Assembly: GCF_003713065.1 (NCBI RefSeq)
Contig: NZ_CP033433.1
Location: forward strand, 4,675,501-4,739,500
DNA: 64,000 bases
Direction: 5' to 3'
DNA from: Cohnella candidum
GTDB taxonomy: Bacteria > Bacillota > Bacilli > Paenibacillales > Paenibacillaceae
Below are positions 12,861 to 46,957 of the stretch, piece after piece (the first letter of the stretch is position 1; each line of letters starts with the position of its first letter). The position numbers and the translations under genes are program-made. The notes under the pieces are model-generated. The model was not told the DNA's origin and searched no databases. It worked only from the letters and a program-made list of their open reading frames with translations.

Positions 12861-13829
12861 ATGATTACGCTGCCGGGCTACACGTTTCTCGGCGTGGTGT
12901 ACGAGGATGAACGGATCCGCGTCGTACACGCCTATTCGCAGCCGACGCTCCGGGTAGCCGCGATTAAAATGGTGAAGCCGGGACCGCGGATGGCGATGGA
13001 GAACGCGAAGCTTATCCACGAATACGAGCTTCTGAGCGGGCTGGAAATGAGCCGCGTGCTCAAGCCGCATGCGCTTGAATGGCAGGACGACACGGTATTG
13101 CTCGTCCACCACATCCTTCAAAGCGTGACGCTGCGGCATTACATAAGCAAGGAAGAGCGGACGCCGGAGCAGACGCTTGCCGCCGCGCGCGCGATTTGCG
13201 ACGTGGTAGCGGAGCTGCATGGACACGGCGTCATTCACCACAACATTCGTCCGGATACGATTCTGCTGCAGCCGGAAACCATGCAGGTCCATCTCACCGG
13301 ACTGCCGGAAGCGGTGCGACTTCGCTCGGACGGCACCGTAGCCGCGGCTCCTCCGCAGGCGCCGGAAGGCCATCCCTTCTATAACGCGCCGGAACTGACG
13401 GGGATGGTCGCCCGCGGTTCTTACGATCCGCGAACGGATCTGTATTCGCTCGGCGTGACGTTGTACGAGCTATTCGGCGGGCGGCTGCCCGCGGATGAAG
13501 CGGGTTTGGCTGCGCTGCCGGAAGGCGTGGCGGCGGTGCTCGGCAAGCTGCTCGCCGTCCGGCCGGAAGACCGGTATGCGTCCGCCGCGGAAGCGGATGC
13601 GCAGCTGAAGAGGTACACGGACGGCCTGGGGGCGGTGCCGCAGCTCACGACGCGCGAGCTGGAGGTGCTGGCTCTGATGGCGTCGGGCTCCTCTAACAAA
13701 GAGATTGCGGCACGGCTGCAGGTCACGACGGAGACGGTTAAAGCGCACACAAAAAACATTTTCGCCAAACTCGGGGTGGGCAGACGTATTCAGGCAGTCG
13801 AGGAAGCCCGAAGGCTTCATTTTCTATAA
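12861..13829 (+). CDS. Pseudokinase-LuxR helix-turn-helix fusion regulator
   Basis: 322-residue protein with an N-terminal protein-kinase-like domain (about 1-255) and a C-terminal LuxR/NarL HTH (262-322, LTTRELEVLALMASGSSNKEIA and VTTETVKAHTKNIFAKL). The kinase fold keeps Lys36 in VAAIKM, the NAPE motif and the DPRTDLYSLGVTLYEL helix. However, the catalytic HRD is HHN (Asn128), the DFG motif is absent (LTGLPE) and there is no glycine-rich loop, so phosphotransfer is unlikely and the domain may act as a ligand or protein sensor. ATG 12861 follows GGAGG at 12850-12854. It lies directly upstream of the two leader-peptide genes on the same strand and is the obvious candidate to control them. Confidence 0.8.
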   Translation: MITLPGYTFLGVVYEDERIRVVHAYSQPTLRVAAIKMVKPGPRMAMENAKLIHEYELLSGLEMSRVLKPHALEWQDDTVLLVHHILQSVTLRHYISKEERTPEQTLAAARAICDVVAELHGHGVIHHNIRPDTILLQPETMQVHLTGLPEAVRLRSDGTVAAAPPQAPEGHPFYNAPELTGMVARGSYDPRTDLYSLGVTLYELFGGRLPADEAGLAALPEGVAAVLGKLLAVRPEDRYASAAEADAQLKRYTDGLGAVPQLTTRELEVLALMASGSSNKEIAARLQVTTETVKAHTKNIFAKLGVGRRIQAVEEARRLHFL

Positions 13830-13843
13830 GATTCGTGACAAAA

Positions 13844-13914
13844 TCCCCCAAACGGGGAATGGCTTCGCGCTTAATCGCCATTGTACGATGGGGTTAACAG
13901 ACAAACCCCGGAGG
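13844..13914 (+). promoter_or_regulatory. Hairpin-bearing leader before the first peptide gene
   Basis: Two short hairpins lie in the 92-base spacer: TCCCC/GGGGA (13844-13858, loop CAAAC), possibly an end signal for the regulator, and GGGGTT/AACCCC (13890-13909) that abuts the GGAGG ribosome site at 13910-13914. The second could affect translation initiation. Only a weak -10-like TACGAT (13884-13889) was seen. Confidence 0.35.
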
Positions 13915-14150
13915 GATCGAGATGGCGGAAGAGAAGAAACCGGCCGAGCAAGAGCTCAAGGCGCAGCACGAGATCGAGCTGAACGATCTGGAACAGGAAC
14001 TGACGGCCGAGCAGCGAGGCGAAGTGGATGGCGGCATCAGCTTGCCTGGAATTTTCGGTCCGGAGAAGCCCAGGCAGAGAAGAAGGGGAGCTTAAACATT
14101 CCATTCAATGGAGGGATCGAGATGGCGGAAGAGAAGAAACCGGCCGAGCA
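13910..14150 (+). repeat. Tandem duplication of the precursor gene, 200-bp offset
   Basis: The 41 bases at 13910-13950 (ribosome site, start codon and first leader codons) are identical to 14110-14150, exactly 200 bases apart. Similarity continues at a lower level through both leaders and stops at the GG codons. Confidence 0.9.
13922..14095 (+). CDS. Double-glycine leader precursor peptide 1
   Basis: 57-residue peptide with an acidic helical leader (starts MAEEKKPAEQE, contains EIELNDLEQELT) ending in a Gly-Gly at residues 37-38 (GEVDGG). Cleavage there by a C39 peptidase would release a 19-residue core, ISLPGIFGPEKPRQRRRGA, with a hydrophobic N-terminus, three prolines and a basic tail. The core has no Cys or Thr and one Ser, so lanthionine or sactionine chemistry is unlikely. 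GGAGG at 13910-13914 is a good ribosome site. It is the first of two near-duplicate precursor genes placed before a prolyl isomerase and a C39-peptidase exporter. Precursor role inferred from the GG motif, the repeated leader and the context. Confidence 0.8.
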   Translation: MAEEKKPAEQELKAQHEIELNDLEQELTAEQRGEVDGGISLPGIFGPEKPRQRRRGA

Positions 14151-14277
14151 GGAGCCGAAAGCGCAGCAAGAAATCGAGCTGAACGACCTGGAGCAGGAGC
14201 TCACGAACCAGCAACAAGATAAAGTGGAAGGCGGCTGGGGCGGCGGTCGTAATCGACCGAGAGTCAGAGGCTCTTAA
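14122..14277 (+). CDS. Double-glycine leader precursor peptide 2
   Basis: 51-residue paralogue of the previous peptide. The leader is nearly identical (MAEEKKPAEQE, then EIELNDLEQELT) and again ends in Gly-Gly (KVEGG, residues 37-38). The predicted core differs completely: WGGGRNRPRVRGS, 13 residues, strongly basic, glycine- and arginine-rich with one proline. The same GGAGG ribosome site and surrounding bases are copied from gene 1. Conserved leader plus variable core is the mark of exported ribosomal peptides such as bacteriocins or pheromones. A terminator follows at 14304-14333, which would favour precursor over exporter transcripts. Confidence 0.8.
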   Translation: MAEEKKPAEQEPKAQQEIELNDLEQELTNQQQDKVEGGWGGGRNRPRVRGS

Positions 14278-14303
14278 TTCCATTATGAATAAAAAATAAG
14301 AGG

Positions 14304-14333
14304 AAGGATCCGTGTAAAGCGGGTCCTTTTTTT
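14304..14333 (+). terminator. Terminator or attenuator between precursor genes and isomerase
   Basis: Stem AAGGATCCG/CGGGTCCTT (one T-G pair) with loop TGTAAAG and seven T. No separate promoter for the downstream genes is evident in the 29 bases before the next start, so partial read-through is likely. Confidence 0.8.
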
Positions 14334-14362
14334 CAAGTTGCGGTCAAGGAGGAGGTGAAGGG

Positions 14363-15121
14363 ATGGAAGCGATCGAGATGAACGGCAGAAGCGTGTCCCT
14401 TCGGGAGCTTCTGCTCTATGGGCGACTAAGCGGTACGATGCCTGCGGTTCGGCGGATCGCCGACGATGCCGCGATTGAATTGTGGGCGGAGCAGCTTAGT
14501 GTGCAAGCCGAAACGGACGATCTGCAGCGGGAATTGACGGCATTTCGGAAAGAGCACGGATTGTTCAAGGCCGCTTCCGCGCGTGCTTGGCTGGAGGAGC
14601 GGGGGGCCGAGTTGGACGACCTCGTCACGATGCTGCGTCCTAGAGTGCTGAGGCGATTGTTGAAGGGGCGCATTATCGAAATGGATGCCGTCGAGCGATA
14701 TTTTGCGGAAAACCGTATGGCCTATGACCTCGCGCAGCTGTCCACCCTCGTCGTCCGCGAATACGGGGAGGCGCAGGAGCTGCGGTTTCGTTTGGAGGAG
14801 GGCGCGGATTTCCATGCGCTTGCCCGGACGCACTCCACGGATGAGAACAGCCGTCCGGCCGGAGGTTATGTCGGTTGGAAAAGCCGGGAGGAGCTGAATC
14901 CGCTGACAGCGGCCGCCGTCTTCGGCGCGAAGAATGAAGAAGTGCTGGGGCCGTTCGAGACAGATCAAGGATTTTGGCTCGTCAAAGTCGAGTCCCTGCG
15001 TACGGCAGAGCTGGATGAGCAGACGACGGCGGACATCCGTGAACGGTTGTTCGAAGAAGCTTTCGAGAAGTTCAGGCGGTCATTGGACATCCGCGAAACG
15101 ATTTGGCGACTGGAAGGTTAG
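14363..15121 (+). CDS. Parvulin-type peptidyl-prolyl cis-trans isomerase
   Basis: 252-residue protein with a SurA/PrsA-like helical N-terminal part (about 10-115) and a parvulin domain (about 121-212: AQLSTLVV, ADFHALARTHSTDENSRPAGGYVGW, VLGPFETDQGFWLVKVE). It has no signal peptide or lipobox, unlike PrsA, so it should work in the cytosol before export. Placed between the precursor genes and the exporter; both predicted cores contain proline, making them plausible substrates. Parvulins of this layout are known next to cyclic-nucleotide-domain C39 exporters in cyanobacterial bacteriocin-like loci; the parallel here is inference. AGGAGG at 14348-14353 is the ribosome site. Confidence 0.85.
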   Translation: MEAIEMNGRSVSLRELLLYGRLSGTMPAVRRIADDAAIELWAEQLSVQAETDDLQRELTAFRKEHGLFKAASARAWLEERGAELDDLVTMLRPRVLRRLLKGRIIEMDAVERYFAENRMAYDLAQLSTLVVREYGEAQELRFRLEEGADFHALARTHSTDENSRPAGGYVGWKSREELNPLTAAAVFGAKNEEVLGPFETDQGFWLVKVESLRTAELDEQTTADIRERLFEEAFEKFRRSLDIRETIWRLEG

Positions 15122-15148
15122 AGGGGAAATCAGCGGGGGAATGACGGA

Positions 15149-18100
15149 ATGAATCAACGAATCACCGCATTTTTGCGGGAGATCAGGCTGTTCGACGTGT
15201 TTACCGATGCAGAGCGGCAGCTGCTGGCCGAACGGATGAGCATGGAAACGTACCAAATGGGACGCACGGTGGCCGGTATCGGGGCGGAGCAAGCGGCCTT
15301 CTATCTCGTCGTGAACGGACAAGCCCGGAAAATCGGGATCACCGCGGACGGTAAGGAGACGAACCAGGGATTGATTGTTTCCGGCGGCCACTTCGGCGAG
15401 CAGTCGCTGCTGGGAACGGAGGCGCAGCCGGTTGTCGTGCGGGCGTCGACGGAATTGACCGTGCTGCGGATGGGACGTGAGCCGTTCCGCGAGATGATCG
15501 GGCAGCACCCGGAAATGGAAAAGTATTTTCGCGAGTATGTCTCTTCCGACATTTTGCGTACGTTCCTCAAGAACAACACGGTGCTCACGCATGTCGATCA
15601 CGGGGCGTTGCGTTCGCTGCTGGACCGGCTGGAAATGTGCGTCTATGAGCCTGGCGGGTATTTGGTCCGTGAGGGAGAGGACGGAGACGCGTTTTATATA
15701 TTGAAGGAAGGCACCGCGCTCGTGGAAAAAGGCGAAGAAGGGAACGTCGTCAACCGGCTGTACCCCGGCGACTTCTTCGGCGAACTGGCGCTGCTGACGG
15801 GCGAACCGAGGCAGGCCAGCGTCCGCGCTTCCGGTGCCCGAGTCGAGGCGTTCCGGCTGGCCAAATCGGACTTCGACGAACTCATTCGCCGTTACCCGGT
15901 TATTCTGGAGTCGATCCGCCGCATTTCCGCTCATTATGCACCCGCCCCTGTGAAGGAGGCTGTGGAGGAAACGGCGGCAACGGCGGCGGTGACCGCGGAT
16001 GCGGAAATCGAACTGCCCGAAGGCGGACCGACGCCGGCACGGAGGCGGCGCTTTCGGCTGCCCTCGCTGCGGTTCCGCCGGTATCCGGCGCTGTTGCAGC
16101 AAAACGAGATGGACTGCGGTCCGACGTGCCTCACGATGCTCGCGCGTTATTATGGCATGAACGCCAGCGTAAACCGCATGAGGGAGCGGTGCAACGTCGG
16201 CACGGAGGGCGCCTCGATGCTGGCGCTGACCGAGACGGCGGAATCGCTCGGTTTCGAGACGCGGGGGTTGAAGACGTCGATGCCCCTGCTGCGAGAGCTG
16301 CACACCCCGTTCATCGCGCATTGGAACGGCAACCACTATGTGATGGTCTACGAATTCGACGAGCGGCGCGGCGCGGTTGTCGTCGATCCCGCGATCGGCA
16401 GCGCGGAAACCGTATCGCCGGAGGCATTCGCGAAGCACTGGAGCGGTTACGCGATTGAGTTGAAACCGACCGAACGGCTCGGAGGGCTGGATGACCGGGA
16501 GCCTCTGTGGTCCAGGTACTTGGCGTTTTTCCGGCCCTATGCCGGGCTCGCTGTCTGGACGGTGGGGCTGTCCGTTCTGATCGAGCTGGTCTACCTAGTC
16601 TTCCCGGTCATGACGCAGCAGGTTTTCGACCGCGTGCTGGACAGCCGCGACATGCCGTTGCTGAGCTTGCTTCTGCTGGCGATGTTGGGACTGGCAGTGT
16701 TCAGCACGGCCGGCATCGCCGTTCGGCAGGTGCTGGTCGGCCGACTGGCCAACCGCATCGACGCCGCCATGCTGGACGGGTTCTACCGGCATCTCATGCG
16801 CTTGCCGTTCTCCTATTTCGCGAGACGGACGACCGGCGACATCATTACGAGAGTTTACGAAAACGAGAAGATCCGCCGGCTGCTCACCGACCATGGCGTT
16901 CATCTCCTGTTGGACGGCTTGACGATGGCCGTGTACGGGGGGCTTATGATTTATTATCACGCCGGATTGGCGTTGATTCCGCTGGTCGTTATCCCGGTGT
17001 ATGCCGTCCTGTACGGATTCGCGCTTCCGAGAATGCGCCGTAATTTCCGCAAACAGTTGCAGGCGGAAGGCGACTCGCAATCGGCGATCGTCGAGATGGT
17101 CGGCGCCATCGCGTCGGTGAAGGGGATGGCGGTAGAAGAGACCGTGCGGGCGAAGCTGATGCGTTTGCTGCAGCGGCAGCTGCAGCTTCGGCTGGAAGGG
17201 AACCGGCTCGAGGTGATCGTGCAAGCGGGTAGCGCCGGCATCCGCCAGGCCGCCAACATCGCGCTGCTCTACTTCGGCGCCATGCAGGTGATGGACGGAC
17301 GCTTAAGCGTCGGCACGCTTGTGGCGTTTACCGTGCTGTTCACGTCGTTCATGTACGCGGTCGAGACAATCTCGGCCATGGCGGGCGAGCTGTCCGAAGC
17401 GAGAACCTCCATGGAACGGCTGAACGACGTTTATGAAGCGGCCGTGGAGCACCCGGAGTCGGATCGCTTCCGCGTGTTGTCCGGTTTGCGCGGACATATC
17501 CGGTTTGAAAACGTGTCGTTCCGATACTACAACGGCGGGAAAATGATCCTGCAAAACCTGAACCTCGAAATCGAGCCGGGACAGACGATCGCGCTGGTCG
17601 GCCGCAGCGGGTCGGGTAAGTCAACGCTCGCCAACCTGCTGTTGAAGCTGCTTGAGCCGACGAGCGGCACGATCTACGTGGACGGCTATCCGCTGAGTGG
17701 AGTCCACGCGGACTCCATCCGCCAGCAGGTCGGTACGGTGCCCCAGGAGACTGTACTTTTCCGCGGCACCGTGCGGGAGAACATTGCGCTGAACGGGGAA
17801 GAGGCTTCGTTCGCCGAACTGGAGCGGGCAGCGAAGCTTGCCGGCGCGGACTCTTTCATCGAGTCTTTGCCGCTCGGCTACGACACGATGATCGGCGAAG
17901 GCGGCGTCCGGTTGTCCGGCGGGCAGCGCCAGCGTATCGCGATCGCCCGTGCGCTGATCCGCGATCCGCGCATCCTCGTTTTTGACGAGGCGACCAGTGC
18001 GCTCGATACGGAATTGGAGAGGATCGTGCAAGACAATATGGAGACGATGATGAGGAACCGCACGACGATTATCATCGCCCATCGGCTCAGCACGATCCGC

Positions 18101-18217
18101 AGCGCGGATCGGATCGTCGTGCTCGACCGGGGAGCGATCGCCGAGTCGGGCACGCATGAGGAGCTGCTGGGGCGCAAAGGGCTGTATCATTACCTGGTGC
18201 AACAGCAGGGGGTGTAG
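15149..18217 (+). CDS. Peptidase-containing ABC exporter with two cyclic-nucleotide-binding domains
   Basis: 1022-residue exporter that should cleave the GG leaders and pump the cores out. Domain order: cNMP-binding domain 1 (about 10-135; HFGEQSLLG lacks the phosphate-binding Arg), domain 2 (about 145-265; GDFFGELALLTGEPRQASV keeps the full phosphate cassette), linker, C39 peptidase (about 315-445; Cys323 in QNEMDCGPTCL, His396 in NGNHYVMVY, Asp413 in VDPAIG), six-helix membrane domain (about 460-740), and ATPase domain (about 785-1022; Lys824 in GRSGSGKST, LSGGQ, ILVFDEATSALD). All catalytic residues are present. The usual lactococcin-type exporters lack the cNMP domains, so transport may be gated by a nucleotide. 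GGGGGA lies 8 bases before ATG 15149. No HlyD-type partner is present. Confidence 0.92.
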   Translation: MNQRITAFLREIRLFDVFTDAERQLLAERMSMETYQMGRTVAGIGAEQAAFYLVVNGQARKIGITADGKETNQGLIVSGGHFGEQSLLGTEAQPVVVRASTELTVLRMGREPFREMIGQHPEMEKYFREYVSSDILRTFLKNNTVLTHVDHGALRSLLDRLEMCVYEPGGYLVREGEDGDAFYILKEGTALVEKGEEGNVVNRLYPGDFFGELALLTGEPRQASVRASGARVEAFRLAKSDFDELIRRYPVILESIRRISAHYAPAPVKEAVEETAATAAVTADAEIELPEGGPTPARRRRFRLPSLRFRRYPALLQQNEMDCGPTCLTMLARYYGMNASVNRMRERCNVGTEGASMLALTETAESLGFETRGLKTSMPLLRELHTPFIAHWNGNHYVMVYEFDERRGAVVVDPAIGSAETVSPEAFAKHWSGYAIELKPTERLGGLDDREPLWSRYLAFFRPYAGLAVWTVGLSVLIELVYLVFPVMTQQVFDRVLDSRDMPLLSLLLLAMLGLAVFSTAGIAVRQVLVGRLANRIDAAMLDGFYRHLMRLPFSYFARRTTGDIITRVYENEKIRRLLTDHGVHLLLDGLTMAVYGGLMIYYHAGLALIPLVVIPVYAVLYGFALPRMRRNFRKQLQAEGDSQSAIVEMVGAIASVKGMAVEETVRAKLMRLLQRQLQLRLEGNRLEVIVQAGSAGIRQAANIALLYFGAMQVMDGRLSVGTLVAFTVLFTSFMYAVETISAMAGELSEARTSMERLNDVYEAAVEHPESDRFRVLSGLRGHIRFENVSFRYYNGGKMILQNLNLEIEPGQTIALVGRSGSGKSTLANLLLKLLEPTSGTIYVDGYPLSGVHADSIRQQVGTVPQETVLFRGTVRENIALNGEEASFAELERAAKLAGADSFIESLPLGYDTMIGEGGVRLSGGQRQRIAIARALIRDPRILVFDEATSALDTELERIVQDNMETMMRNRTTIIIAHRLSTIRSADRIVVLDRGAIAESGTHEELLGRKGLYHYLVQQQGV

Positions 18218-18285
18218 GAAATCCGATTGACGCGCTAGGCAACGTGTAATAATATGAAATAAATACCAAACCGCGAGTGGTGAAG

Positions 18286-18328
18286 AACACCCTGTCAGAT
18301 GCCGAAGGCGTCTGTCAGGGTGTTTTTT
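18286..18328 (+). terminator. Terminator closing the peptide-export operon
   Basis: Long stem: AACACCCTG, a T-T mismatch, then CAGATGCC pairs back to the mirror arm around a GAA loop, and six T follow. It separates the exporter from the DUF1444-like gene. Confidence 0.85.
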
Positions 18329-18357
18329 GCGTCTTGGCGTCATGGAGGAGATGCAAG

Positions 18358-19212
18358 ATGAAAACGGCCCGTTTGTACGATCAACCCGAACAATTTGCGG
18401 AAATGATGATGCATCAACTGAGAGAAAGCATGGGCGTGCAGGTCGAGAGCAAGGAGGACGAACCGCTGCTTCTGGACGTCATCTTAAAGCAAGACGCGCC
18501 GGAAGAGAAAATTCGGGTCAGCCTTCATGAAACGTTCCGAACCTACCTGGCCGGCGGGGATTTGAACGTGGCTGTCGATTACTTGAATGATATCGTAAGG
18601 AACTCGCAATTTATCCTGACCCAGCAAGACAAAATGCTGAAGCTCGACATGACTTATCTGTATCCGGCGATTCGTGATGCCAGATATGTCCTTGAAGCAG
18701 GGCGGGATTGTCCGATGGTCTCGGAAGAGTGCGGCTTGCCCGGACTTCGCGTGATTTTTCTGGAGATTAAAGACGGCGTTAGCAAAATCATCAACGAAGG
18801 TTCCTTGGAGGCAAATCCCCGGTTAACCGAAGAGAGAGTGAAGCGAATCGCATTCCGCAATTTGCGGTCGGCGGGTTGGGAACATCCCCGGCTAGAGCTG
18901 CAAAGTCCATTTCGCCCGTCTTGTACGGTCGAAGTGTACACGGACTACTCTCATCCGATTGATTATCAGTTTATCCACCCGGAGATGGCTGCTTCCAATA
19001 CGCCGCGCAACTTCGTGCTCGCATTCACGAACCGGAAGTACGCCTTGCTGCTGCGCTCCACCGAAAACATGGATACGAAGCAGAAGGCGAAGAGGTTGGT
19101 CGAAAAGTCCAAATTCGCGGAAGTCGTAAAACGAAGTTTTCATCTGTTGCCCCACCCGGTGTCCCAACTGATGTACTGGTTTCACGATGGGAAAGCGGAG
19201 TTGTTGGATTAA
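18358..19212 (+). CDS. DUF1444-like (YtpQ-type) protein
   Basis: 284-residue cytosolic protein without membrane segments or known catalytic motifs. YPAIRDARYV, GLRVIFLEIKDGVSKIINEGSL and the C-terminal NTPRNFVLAFTNRKYALLLRSTENM recall the uncharacterised DUF1444/YtpQ family of Bacillales; the assignment is by eye and moderate. ATG 18358 has GGAGGAG 7 bases upstream. It sits behind the exporter terminator, so probably has its own promoter and may be unrelated to peptide export. No function is known for the family. Confidence 0.55.
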   Translation: MKTARLYDQPEQFAEMMMHQLRESMGVQVESKEDEPLLLDVILKQDAPEEKIRVSLHETFRTYLAGGDLNVAVDYLNDIVRNSQFILTQQDKMLKLDMTYLYPAIRDARYVLEAGRDCPMVSEECGLPGLRVIFLEIKDGVSKIINEGSLEANPRLTEERVKRIAFRNLRSAGWEHPRLELQSPFRPSCTVEVYTDYSHPIDYQFIHPEMAASNTPRNFVLAFTNRKYALLLRSTENMDTKQKAKRLVEKSKFAEVVKRSFHLLPHPVSQLMYWFHDGKAELLD

Positions 19213-21012: not shown

Positions 21013-22365
21013 ATGCAGCCGAACACCATTCGAATCATCCAGACGGCTAAGGATACGGGAGACCGCTTGGCGGAACTGTCGCCGCTGTCGTTCGTTCCGG
21101 ACGCGAACGGCCAGGAAAACCAATTGATCAATATTTATGACGATGTGGAATATCAGACCATCGAAGGCTTCGGCGGCGCGATCACGGAAGCTTCGGCGGT
21201 TACGCTGGCCAAGCTGAGCGCCGATAAGCAAGCGGAGGTCATGAAAGCCTACTTCGACCCCGTTGACGGCCTGGGCTATACGATCGTGAGATCGCATATC
21301 CAAAGCTGCGACTTCTCGCTCGGGAACTACGCTTACGTGCAGAATAACGACGAGAGCCTCGAAACATTTAATATTGACCATGACATGAAAGAACTCATTC
21401 CAACGATTCGGAAGGCGGCTGCCCACATCGGCGAAGACTTCCGGTTGTTCTCTTCTCCTTGGAGCCCGCCGCCATGGATGAAAACGAACGGAACGATGAA
21501 CGGCGGAGGCTCGTTAAAACCGGAGTATCGCGCGGCATGGGCGGAAATGTACGTGAAGTACATCCAAGCTTATGAAGCGGCAGGGCTTCCGGTCTGGGCG
21601 CTCAGCGTTCAGAACGAAGCGAAAGCGGTTCAGATTTGGGATTCGTGCATCTACACCGCGGAGGAAGAGAAGGATTTCGTTCGGGATTACCTCGGACCCG
21701 CGCTGGAGAAGGCGGGCATGTCCCACGTGAAAGTGATGATTTGGGACCACAACCGCGAACGCGTATATGAGCGGGCGAAGACGGCTTTCACGGACGAGGC
21801 GGCTTCCAAATACATTTGGGGGATTTGCTTCCACTGGTACTCCGGCGACCATTTTGAATCGCTGGCAGCCGTGCACGACAAGTTCCCGGACAAAAAGCTG
21901 TTTTTCAGCGAAGGCTGCCAAGAGGGCGGCGTCCATCTCGGTTCCTGGGCGACGGGCGAGCGGTACGGCCATGATCTCATGGGCAACCTGAACAATTGGA
22001 CAGCGGCTTGGACGGACTGGAACGTCGTGCTCGATGAGCAAGGCGGGCCGAACCATGTCGGGAACTTCTGCGACGCGCCGATCATCGCCGACACGACGAA
22101 GAACGAGGTCGTGTACGAAAGCTCGTACTACTATATTGGCCATTTCAGCAAATATATCCGCCCAGGCGCCAAGCGCATCGCGGCTTCCCGGTATACGGAG
22201 AAGCTGGAGACGACCGCGTTCAAGAACGGCGACGGCACGATCGCGACGGTCGTGTTGAACCGGACGGACAGTGAAATTCCTTACATCGTGCGCTATCGCG
22301 ATCAACTCGCGCACGTTACGATTCCGGCGCATGCCATTCAGACGCTGCTGTTCGCGCAAGGGTAA
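21013..22365 (+). CDS. GH30 family glycoside hydrolase (glucosylceramidase-like)
   Basis: 450-residue GH30 enzyme: a TIM barrel with EGFGGAITEASAVTL near residue 50 and a C-terminal beta-sandwich (about 375-450). The acid/base is Glu202 in SVQNEAKA and the nucleophile Glu300 in LFFSEGCQEGG. SPWSPPPWMKTNGTMNGGGSL is typical of glucosylceramidase/beta-1,6-glucanase-type members. There is no signal peptide, so it should act on imported oligosaccharides in the cytosol. Start ATG 21013 follows AGGGAGG by 7 bases. Its TAA stop lies inside the first unit of a 51-bp tandem array. Regulated probably by the divergent AraC protein. Exact substrate unknown. Confidence 0.88.
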   Translation: MQPNTIRIIQTAKDTGDRLAELSPLSFVPDANGQENQLINIYDDVEYQTIEGFGGAITEASAVTLAKLSADKQAEVMKAYFDPVDGLGYTIVRSHIQSCDFSLGNYAYVQNNDESLETFNIDHDMKELIPTIRKAAAHIGEDFRLFSSPWSPPPWMKTNGTMNGGGSLKPEYRAAWAEMYVKYIQAYEAAGLPVWALSVQNEAKAVQIWDSCIYTAEEEKDFVRDYLGPALEKAGMSHVKVMIWDHNRERVYERAKTAFTDEAASKYIWGICFHWYSGDHFESLAAVHDKFPDKKLFFSEGCQEGGVHLGSWATGERYGHDLMGNLNNWTAAWTDWNVVLDEQGGPNHVGNFCDAPIIADTTKNEVVYESSYYYIGHFSKYIRPGAKRIAASRYTEKLETTAFKNGDGTIATVVLNRTDSEIPYIVRYRDQLAHVTIPAHAIQTLLFAQG

Positions 22366-22611
22366 AAAGTAACGTTGCAGTTTGGCAGTGGCGTCCAAGA
22401 ACGGCTGCAGAGGTAAAAAGTAACGTTGCAGTGCGGCAGTGGCGTCCAAGAGCCGCTGTAGCGGTAAAAAGTAACGTTGCAGTTTGGCAGTGGCGTCCAA
22501 GAGCGGTTGCAGCGGTAAAAAGTAACGTTGCAATGTGGCAGTGGCGTCCAACAGCAGCTGTAGCGTTAAAAAGTAACGTTACAGTGCGGCAATGGCGTCC
22601 AAGAAAGCAGG
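22361..22611. repeat. Tandem array A: five 51-bp units
   Basis: Units start at 22361, 22412, 22463, 22514 and 22565, an exact 51-base period. Each opens GGTAAAAAGTAACGTTGCAG and contains GGCAGTGGCGTCCAA. Copies differ by a few substitutions and no gaps, and the last is shortened. The array begins at the GH30 stop codon and ends just before a terminator, so it would be transcribed as a 3' region. Because 51 is a multiple of three, long artefactual frames run through it on both strands. Confidence 0.95.
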
Positions 22612-46169: not shown

Positions 46170-46401
46170 CAAAAACGTCGCGAAATGCGACGATAACGGG
46201 CTGTAACCGGCCGGACCGATCAAAATCGTCACAAAAAACGACGATAACGAGCCGTAATCGGACGGACCTATCAAAATCGTCACAAAAAGCGACGAAAACG
46301 AGCCGTAACCGGCCGGACCTATCAAAATCGTCGCAAAAAGTGACGATAATGGGCCTCAGCCGGCTAGAACAAGCAAAATCGTCGCAAAATGTGACGATAA
46401 T
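46170..46401. repeat. Tandem array B: five 51-bp units with internal hairpin
   Basis: Units start at 46170, 46221, 46272, 46323 and 46374 (exact 51-base period; the last is partial). Each carries TCGTCRC-AAAA-GYGACGA, able to form a short hairpin, followed by GCCGTAACCGGCCGGAC in the better copies. Upstream, 45869-46169 holds the promoter of the minus-strand gene and a degraded unit; nothing else is seen there. Confidence 0.92.
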
Positions 46402-46423: not shown

Positions 46424-46951
46424 CGGTTTCACCGTCTTACGAAGCGGTCTGACGAGTTTAAAGTTACCAAAGACGGTTTAACCGTCTTGCGTAGTTGGTT
46501 CGGCGAGTTTGAAGTTACCGAAGACGGTTTCACCGTCTTGCGGAGCGGATTTGGCGAGTTTGAAGTTACAGAAGACGGTCTCACCGTCTTGGGGGGCAGG
46601 TTCGACGAGTTTGAAGTTACCGAAGACGGTTTAACCGTCTTGCATAGTAGGTTAGGCGAGTTTGAAGTTACCGAAGACGGTTTCATAGTCTTGCGGAGCA
46701 GATTCAGCAAGTTTGAAGTTACCGAAGACGGTCACACCGTCTTGCGGGGCGGATTAGGCGAGTTTGAAGTTACAGAAGACGGTCTCGCCGTCTTGGGGGG
46801 CAGGTTCGGCGAGTTTGAAGTTACCGAAGACGGTCACACCGTCTTGCGGAGCGGATTAGGCGAGTTTGAAGTTACCGAAGGCGGTTTCATAGTCTTGCGG
46901 AGCAGATTCAGCAAGTTTGAAGTTACCGAAGACGGTCTCACGGTCTTGCGG
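46424..46951. repeat. Tandem array C: about 10.5 units of 51 bp
   Basis: AAGTTACC-type unit starts fall at 46461 and every 51 bases to 46920, ten copies plus a partial copy before. Most units contain AAGACGGT-NNN-ACCGTCTT, an 8-bp hairpin, followed by a variable GC-rich stretch and GGCGAGTTTG. Units 5 and 9 share a variant that breaks the hairpin (CATAGTCTT). Units 3-6 resemble 7-10, so a 4-unit (204-bp) block was duplicated. It follows directly on array B. Confidence 0.95.
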
Positions 46952-46957
46952 AAAACG

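Follow-up and report, generated by a model that had tools for sequence, protein, structure and literature searches.

The window, as the whole 64,000-nucleotide stretch of the Cohnella candidum genome analysed here is called, carries at 12861-18328 one run of genes, delimited from the sequence and its ORF list: a regulator, two tandem peptides with Gly-Gly leaders, a parvulin and an exporter. A same-direction cluster within 5.5 kb had been described in the first-pass annotation, and all of the genes, with the features given below, do lie on the + strand in that span. The first gene (12861..13829) encodes a protein of 322 amino acids which in Pfam matches Pkinase at residues 21-212 (7.6e-21) and GerE at residues 261-314 (1.1e-18). 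Its kinase motifs, read by eye, are degenerate: HRD has become HHN, the K after HRD has become R, and DFG has become TGL. The HRD and DFG of an active Ser/Thr kinase are therefore missing, and the earlier assignment as a pseudokinase-LuxR transcriptional regulator stands. The degenerate motifs are common to the relatives at loci L005 and L006. In those two regulators and in that of L127 there is an additional segment between the kinase and LuxR parts, with a GAF domain found by Pfam in L127. The gene order regulator-peptide-parvulin-exporter is repeated in L127, where the exporter ORF is split.

Precursor peptide A (13922..14095) is made up of the leader MAEEKKPAEQELKAQHEIELNDLEQELTAEQRGEVDGG and the predicted core ISLPGIFGPEKPRQRRRGA, and GGAGGGATCGAG lies upstream of its ORF; its leader belongs to a conserved family. 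Peptide B (14122..14277), a tandem duplicate of A, has the leader MAEEKKPAEQEPKAQQEIELNDLEQELTNQQQDKVEGG and the predicted core WGGGRNRPRVRGS. These are the twin Gly-Gly peptides and cores proposed from the first reading. The two genes have common sequence ahead of the start codon, and the ORFs, of 57 and 51 amino acids, match no curated family. Computed monoisotopic masses of the predicted cores are 2134.2236 and 1453.7763 Da, respectively. A terminator-like hairpin (14299..14333; -19.5 kcal/mol, z -4.4) separates the peptide genes from that of the parvulin, and the clade C loci described below also have a hairpin at this spot. A second one (18280..18330; -37.5 kcal/mol, z -8.6) closes the unit.

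The parvulin gene (14363..15121) encodes a SurA/PrsA-like protein of 252 amino acids with a Rotamase domain (Pfam, 4.7e-15). Its AlphaFold2 model has a mean pLDDT of 90.7 and the parvulin fold, with TM-scores (target) of 0.85 and 0.89 to the PrsA domains 1zk6 and 6xd8; SurA is the best match both in structure and in sequence. No signal peptide is apparent by eye at the N-termini of the module parvulins. Catalytic parvulins of the PpiC/PrsA type have two conserved active-site histidines. When the motif is compared with the SurA alignment, the window protein has T and W at these positions, and its relatives have other residues. Among about 30 aligned module proteins the first histidine occurs in none, and the second only in L085 and L099. 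Among the parvulin paralogues of the source genome, L107 is also without them and does not serve as a catalytic control.

The exporter (15149..18217; 1022 amino acids) is composed, by Pfam, of two N-terminal cNMP_binding stretches, Peptidase_C39 (2.4e-36), ABC_membrane and ABC_tran. The C39 residues (QQNEMDCG, GNHY, VVDP) and the ATPase motifs (GRSGSGKST, LSGGQRQR, DEAT, AHRLS) are intact, in agreement with the description given before. By gene content this is a PCAT, having a catalytic C39 domain (Cys/His/Asp, Gln) fused to ABC domains and a Gly-Gly leader gene nearby. It is established for such transporters that the ABC exporter releases the core once C39 has cleaved the precursor behind Gly-Gly. 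The second cNMP domain has kept its phosphate-binding cassette, FGELALLTGEPRQASVRA, and FGE...R.A.V is kept in domain 2 of all aligned loci except L097, L098 and L100; in domain 1 the cassette is degenerate. The solved domains nearest to the second are those of the cGMP- and cAMP-dependent kinases (PKG/PKA), and two genes of the source genome match the class III cyclase family. Judged from these motifs, nucleotide gating of the exporter is plausible. The N-terminal cNMP-type domain of HetC is needed in vivo, and in vitro it bound ppGpp, not cAMP (PMC10986499).

Pfam was run on seven genes at the window locus, and the remaining neighbours were read from the ORF list. On that basis none of the ORFs nearby was recognised as a RiPP tailoring enzyme, which agrees with the earlier remark that classical tailoring enzymes are missing. 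Nor was HlyD recognised among those seven genes or, by eye, among the ORFs at 9-23 kb. Immunity proteins of bacteriocins are diverse, and an unsystematic look for this class of protein beside the precursors recognised none. Two flanking genes, one upstream with DUF3231 and one downstream at 18358-19212, were considered as members of the module and rejected; neither shows any sign of membership, and neither turned up next to other modules. Further along the window, a tandem array with a 51-bp unit (4.8 copies) lies at 22361-22604, downstream of a glucosylceramidase-like ORF, and there are two more 51-bp-unit arrays at 46170-46400 (4.5 copies) and 46424-46952 (10.4 copies).

The module in related genomes

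The first-pass annotation took exporter, parvulin and peptides for a unit, a Gly-Gly leader export system, and suggested a search of related genomes for the three together. Genome contigs were scanned with the exporter, giving 13 relatives in Paenibacillus and Cohnella, and in all 13 of these first-found relatives the parvulin gene is directly upstream. The parvulin-exporter pair occurs at 40 loci besides the window. Of 44 non-window loci, 36 have a leader gene no more than 1 kb from the parvulin, and the leader profile matches nothing else in those stretches; L092 and L106 are one locus, which makes 35 of 43 distinct loci. About 25 of these loci stood outside the training set of the leader profile. 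An exporter kept while its leaders are not had been named beforehand as counter-evidence; the leaders are in fact conserved with the exporter across relatives, and these sequence comparisons support the view that exporter, parvulin and peptides belong together as a Gly-Gly leader peptide export module.

No adjacent leader was recognised at six loci with an intact parvulin-exporter pair (L003, L005, L006, L097, L099 and L125). Relatives lacking the small genes had also been named in advance as counter-evidence, and this refutation failed, as the genomes of L003, L005 and L006 each keep 3-5 leader genes elsewhere. A pattern search of the stretch examined gave no leader gene for L097, L099 and L125. 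In the genus, the parvulin is present in 9 of 37 genomes, and the leader in 7 of these 9 carriers and in 0 of the 28 others (hypergeometric chance about 3.5e-6, counting genomes as independent and ignoring relatedness). The two carriers without a profile leader, G015 and G027, have more diverged ones (L101 and L096).

Module parvulins (E ≤ 8e-39) are separated from ordinary paralogues (E ≥ 2e-28) by a gap in the profile scores, a criterion that assigns the module protein to 17 of 400 family genomes. Matches with E up to 1e-30 were obtained for 24 of 399 genomes sampled from the order and for 3 of 399 from the phylum; among the latter, the match in G706 is weak and has no exporter beside it. 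On these counts the module is patchy and rare.

Leaders, cores and regulators

The leaders of peptides A and B differ mostly by synonymous changes (83% DNA identity; pS 0.44, pN 0.10), and the clade C leaders have a mean pN of 0.12 and pS of 0.49. On this pattern of substitution the leader is under purifying selection. Its likeness to bacteriocin leader models (TIGR01847, the cerein 7B family and others) is weak, the best E values being about 0.004-0.02.

Behind the leader, cores run from 3 to about 110 amino acids and five classes, A to E, can be distinguished. Group A comprises the window, L127, and scattered genes in P. mesophilus and in the genomes of L003, L005 and L006; its cores have 8-20 residues and a net charge of +3 to +6, are free of Cys, and mostly end in a motif of the RG or RRG type. 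The core of peptide B is resembled by WGGARNYLRPKVRGA in another genome, that of P. mesophilus (L078). A common functional neighbour for the scattered precursors was rejected, as the neighbouring genes vary between loci. Group B cores have about 17 residues and are DLKTGTKPIIKKVTIRP-like. The tails of group C are RFI, RFF, KRAL, KRYSY and RQSRASY, all five proline-free, plus one of 13 residues. No Cys is present in any listed core of groups A-C. Group D cores reach about 110 residues, several being proline-rich, and in group E the leader ends in AGG, IGG or NGG and the tail begins with V, A or G.

At L008, L012-L015, L084 and L128, about 42 conserved leader residues are followed after Gly-Gly by RFI or RFF only, and in most of these a conserved hairpin comes next. 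Read from the sequence, such genes are possibly tripeptide precursors. P. mesophilus has another RFI leader gene, which adjoins a truncated parvulin ORF of 117 amino acids (L084:6388-6901); the two look like the remains of a decayed module. At L102, L103, L129, L130 and L133 the leader and exporter are of the same kind as in the module and the cores are long, several of them proline-rich, of the type GLYVxVxDGxI ... FTPPPxF; four of these cores match no Pfam family above cut-off.

The parvulin tree recovers each of B, C and D as a monophyletic group, with A paraphyletic to B. The same grouping of B, C and D appears in the exporter tree, where support for B is low (0.13). Matching regulators to cores from the neighbourhood tables gave a pseudokinase-LuxR protein for four group A loci including the window (in L006 about 9 kb off), a 7TMR-DISM histidine kinase with an OmpR-type regulator for 10 distinct group B loci, a HisKA_7TM kinase with a BTAD regulator for four group C loci, and AAA-LuxR for three group D loci. 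Regulator class follows core class, a match which provides candidate peptide-regulator pairs. With a pseudokinase-LuxR protein here and two-component systems elsewhere, no common receptor was identified. The 7TMR-DISM kinase and OmpR-type regulator adjoin the group B peptide and exporter at L004, L007, L085, L087, L092, L093, L122-L124 and L126, with about 61-78% identity to those of L093; they are a candidate peptide-sensing or peptide-controlling pair.

Function of the module

We consider it probable that the locus serves regulated, chaperone-escorted and nucleotide-tied C39 export of short basic peptides which act outside the cell. It would be a dedicated secretion module for Gly-Gly leader peptides that are probably unmodified. 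The pseudokinase-LuxR regulator would control production of the two precursors, and these may be made in excess over the exporter, since a terminator-like hairpin stands between the peptide genes and the genes downstream. The SurA-like pseudo-parvulin would bind the precursor, most likely by its conserved leader, and hold it open or hand it to the exporter. There, to judge from the conserved residues, the C39 domain would cleave behind Gly-Gly and the ABC exporter send the core outside. The two N-terminal cNMP domains may tie export to a nucleotide, which could be cAMP, cGMP or, as for HetC, ppGpp. The weakest step is what the peptides do once outside. Signals or modulators are slightly favoured over classical bacteriocins because peptide classes have their own regulator classes and neither an immunity gene nor a tailoring gene was recognised. 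A bolder version is that these are secreted Gram-positive signals, that a catalytically dead parvulin escorts the leader to a cyclic-nucleotide-gated exporter, that one clade frees bare RFI, and that peptide and regulator classes (pseudokinase-LuxR, 7TM histidine kinase pairs, AAA-LuxR) have co-evolved; this is put forward tentatively and, taken whole, is more to be doubted than believed.

One rival to the main reading differs from it only in peptide function: the cationic cores would be antimicrobial, the regulators would trigger killing, and the exporter would be a conventional bacteriocin PCAT. The net charge of +3 to +6, the weak resemblance of the leaders to TIGR01847 and the cerein 7B family, and the naming of the cyanobacterial relatives as bacteriocin clusters (PMC3140520) all point that way. 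However, no immunity gene was recognised at the locus, a membrane-active peptide would have to be longer than the three-residue tails of clade C, and several precursors of one genome are scattered among unrelated neighbours, so that a bacteriocin module is possible rather than probable. Clade C bears also on the idea that the leader itself is the functional product, controlling exporter or regulator, and that the variable tail is dispensable. A tail of mostly 3-7 residues beside a conserved leader of about 42 would suit it, but RFI is retained through synonymous codon changes, clade B cores show conservation across about 17 residues, and the Gly-Gly site and intact C39 domain are retained throughout; we regard it as unlikely. 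That the small ORFs arose by chance, or are paired with the exporter by accident, could be argued from their shortness and from their having no match in curated families. The mostly synonymous leader differences, together with the leader family beside the parvulin in most other loci, show that they are not chance; adjacency, purifying selection and co-occurrence in the genus refute that reading.

The parvulin had earlier been suggested to set proline geometry before export. An active prolyl isomerase would be in keeping with the intact Rotamase fold, with the 1-3 prolines of many cores and with the proline-rich cores of clade D. Its histidines are nevertheless replaced in nearly all module proteins, and the gene is retained where the tails are proline-free, which together disfavour isomerisation as the general role and leave that suggestion distinctly improbable. 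Losing these histidines does not necessarily end activity. An analogy is offered by MirC, a TIGR04500 protein which works with the graspetide synthetase of a PCAT-encoding cluster and is proposed to be a chaperone (PMC13097080). A chaperone that binds the precursor suits the module better than isomerisation of proline, because the active-site histidines are lost and most clade C tails are without proline, even if a chaperone seems elaborate for a precursor of 45 amino acids with a tail of three.

Comparison with known systems

The first-pass annotation did not recognise the gene combination as a named system in Firmicutes. Complete novelty is ruled out by the cyanobacterial bacteriocin clusters classed as groups I, II and VI, in which a long-type C39 exporter with CAP_ED occurs with SurA and HlyD (Wang et al. 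2011, PMC3140520), and by plasmids of Nostoc, Tolypothrix and Leptolyngbya on which exporter, HlyD and parvulin lie side by side. What remained of the claim is the Gram-positive form, of which no report was found in the open-access literature searched. The clusters of Wang et al. resemble the window in the N-terminal CAP_ED of the C39 exporter (two cNMP stretches in the window), the SurA/rotamase gene and the Gly-Gly precursors nearby. They differ in carrying HlyD, which was not recognised at the window, in the further modification or S8 peptidase genes of groups II and VI, none of which was recognised in the window unit, and in their precursors, the window peptides having no match to a curated NHLP/Nif11-type family. 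On a plasmid of the betaproteobacterium Caballeronia (L138, 6001-9762) there is an unannotated pair, a parvulin with an exporter match immediately after it that is full-length and of 34% identity; a Gly-Gly type small ORF lies some 2.4 kb away.

HetC of Nostoc PCC 7120 is likewise a PCAT with an N-terminal cNMP-type domain and is a proposed exporter of a signalling peptide (PMC10986499); its description does not mention a parvulin, and no Gly-Gly leader gene was found near hetC, whereas in the window the cNMP domains of the exporter number two and the precursors are encoded beside it. The rosaritide cluster mir shares with the window a PpiC-like protein encoded with a PCAT, MirC of TIGR04500, proposed to act as a chaperone and not as an isomerase, but it includes a graspetide synthetase, and MirC has an extra N-terminal domain (PMC13097080). 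Membership of the window parvulin in TIGR04500 was rejected, as its match covers only positions 93-335 of 340 and, at 74.1 bits, is far under the curated cut-off of 180 bits; a match below cut-off is also found in Synechococcus elongatus. In that species EbfG1-4 are small Gly-Gly proteins whose efficient secretion needs the C39 exporter PteB and whose role is in biofilm formation rather than killing; neither a parvulin nor a nucleotide-binding domain is mentioned for them (PMC4997328).

The pairing of a parvulin with a cNMP-domain exporter has thus been documented from cyanobacteria since 2011. What is new here is the HlyD-less Gram-positive form, a leader family not previously filed, and core classes that track regulator classes. 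A compact version with adjacent precursors, in named Paenibacillus and Cohnella species, makes several questions directly testable: what a parvulin does if it is unable to isomerise proline, which nucleotide controls the gating of a peptide exporter, and whether a tripeptide can be released by a C39 exporter.
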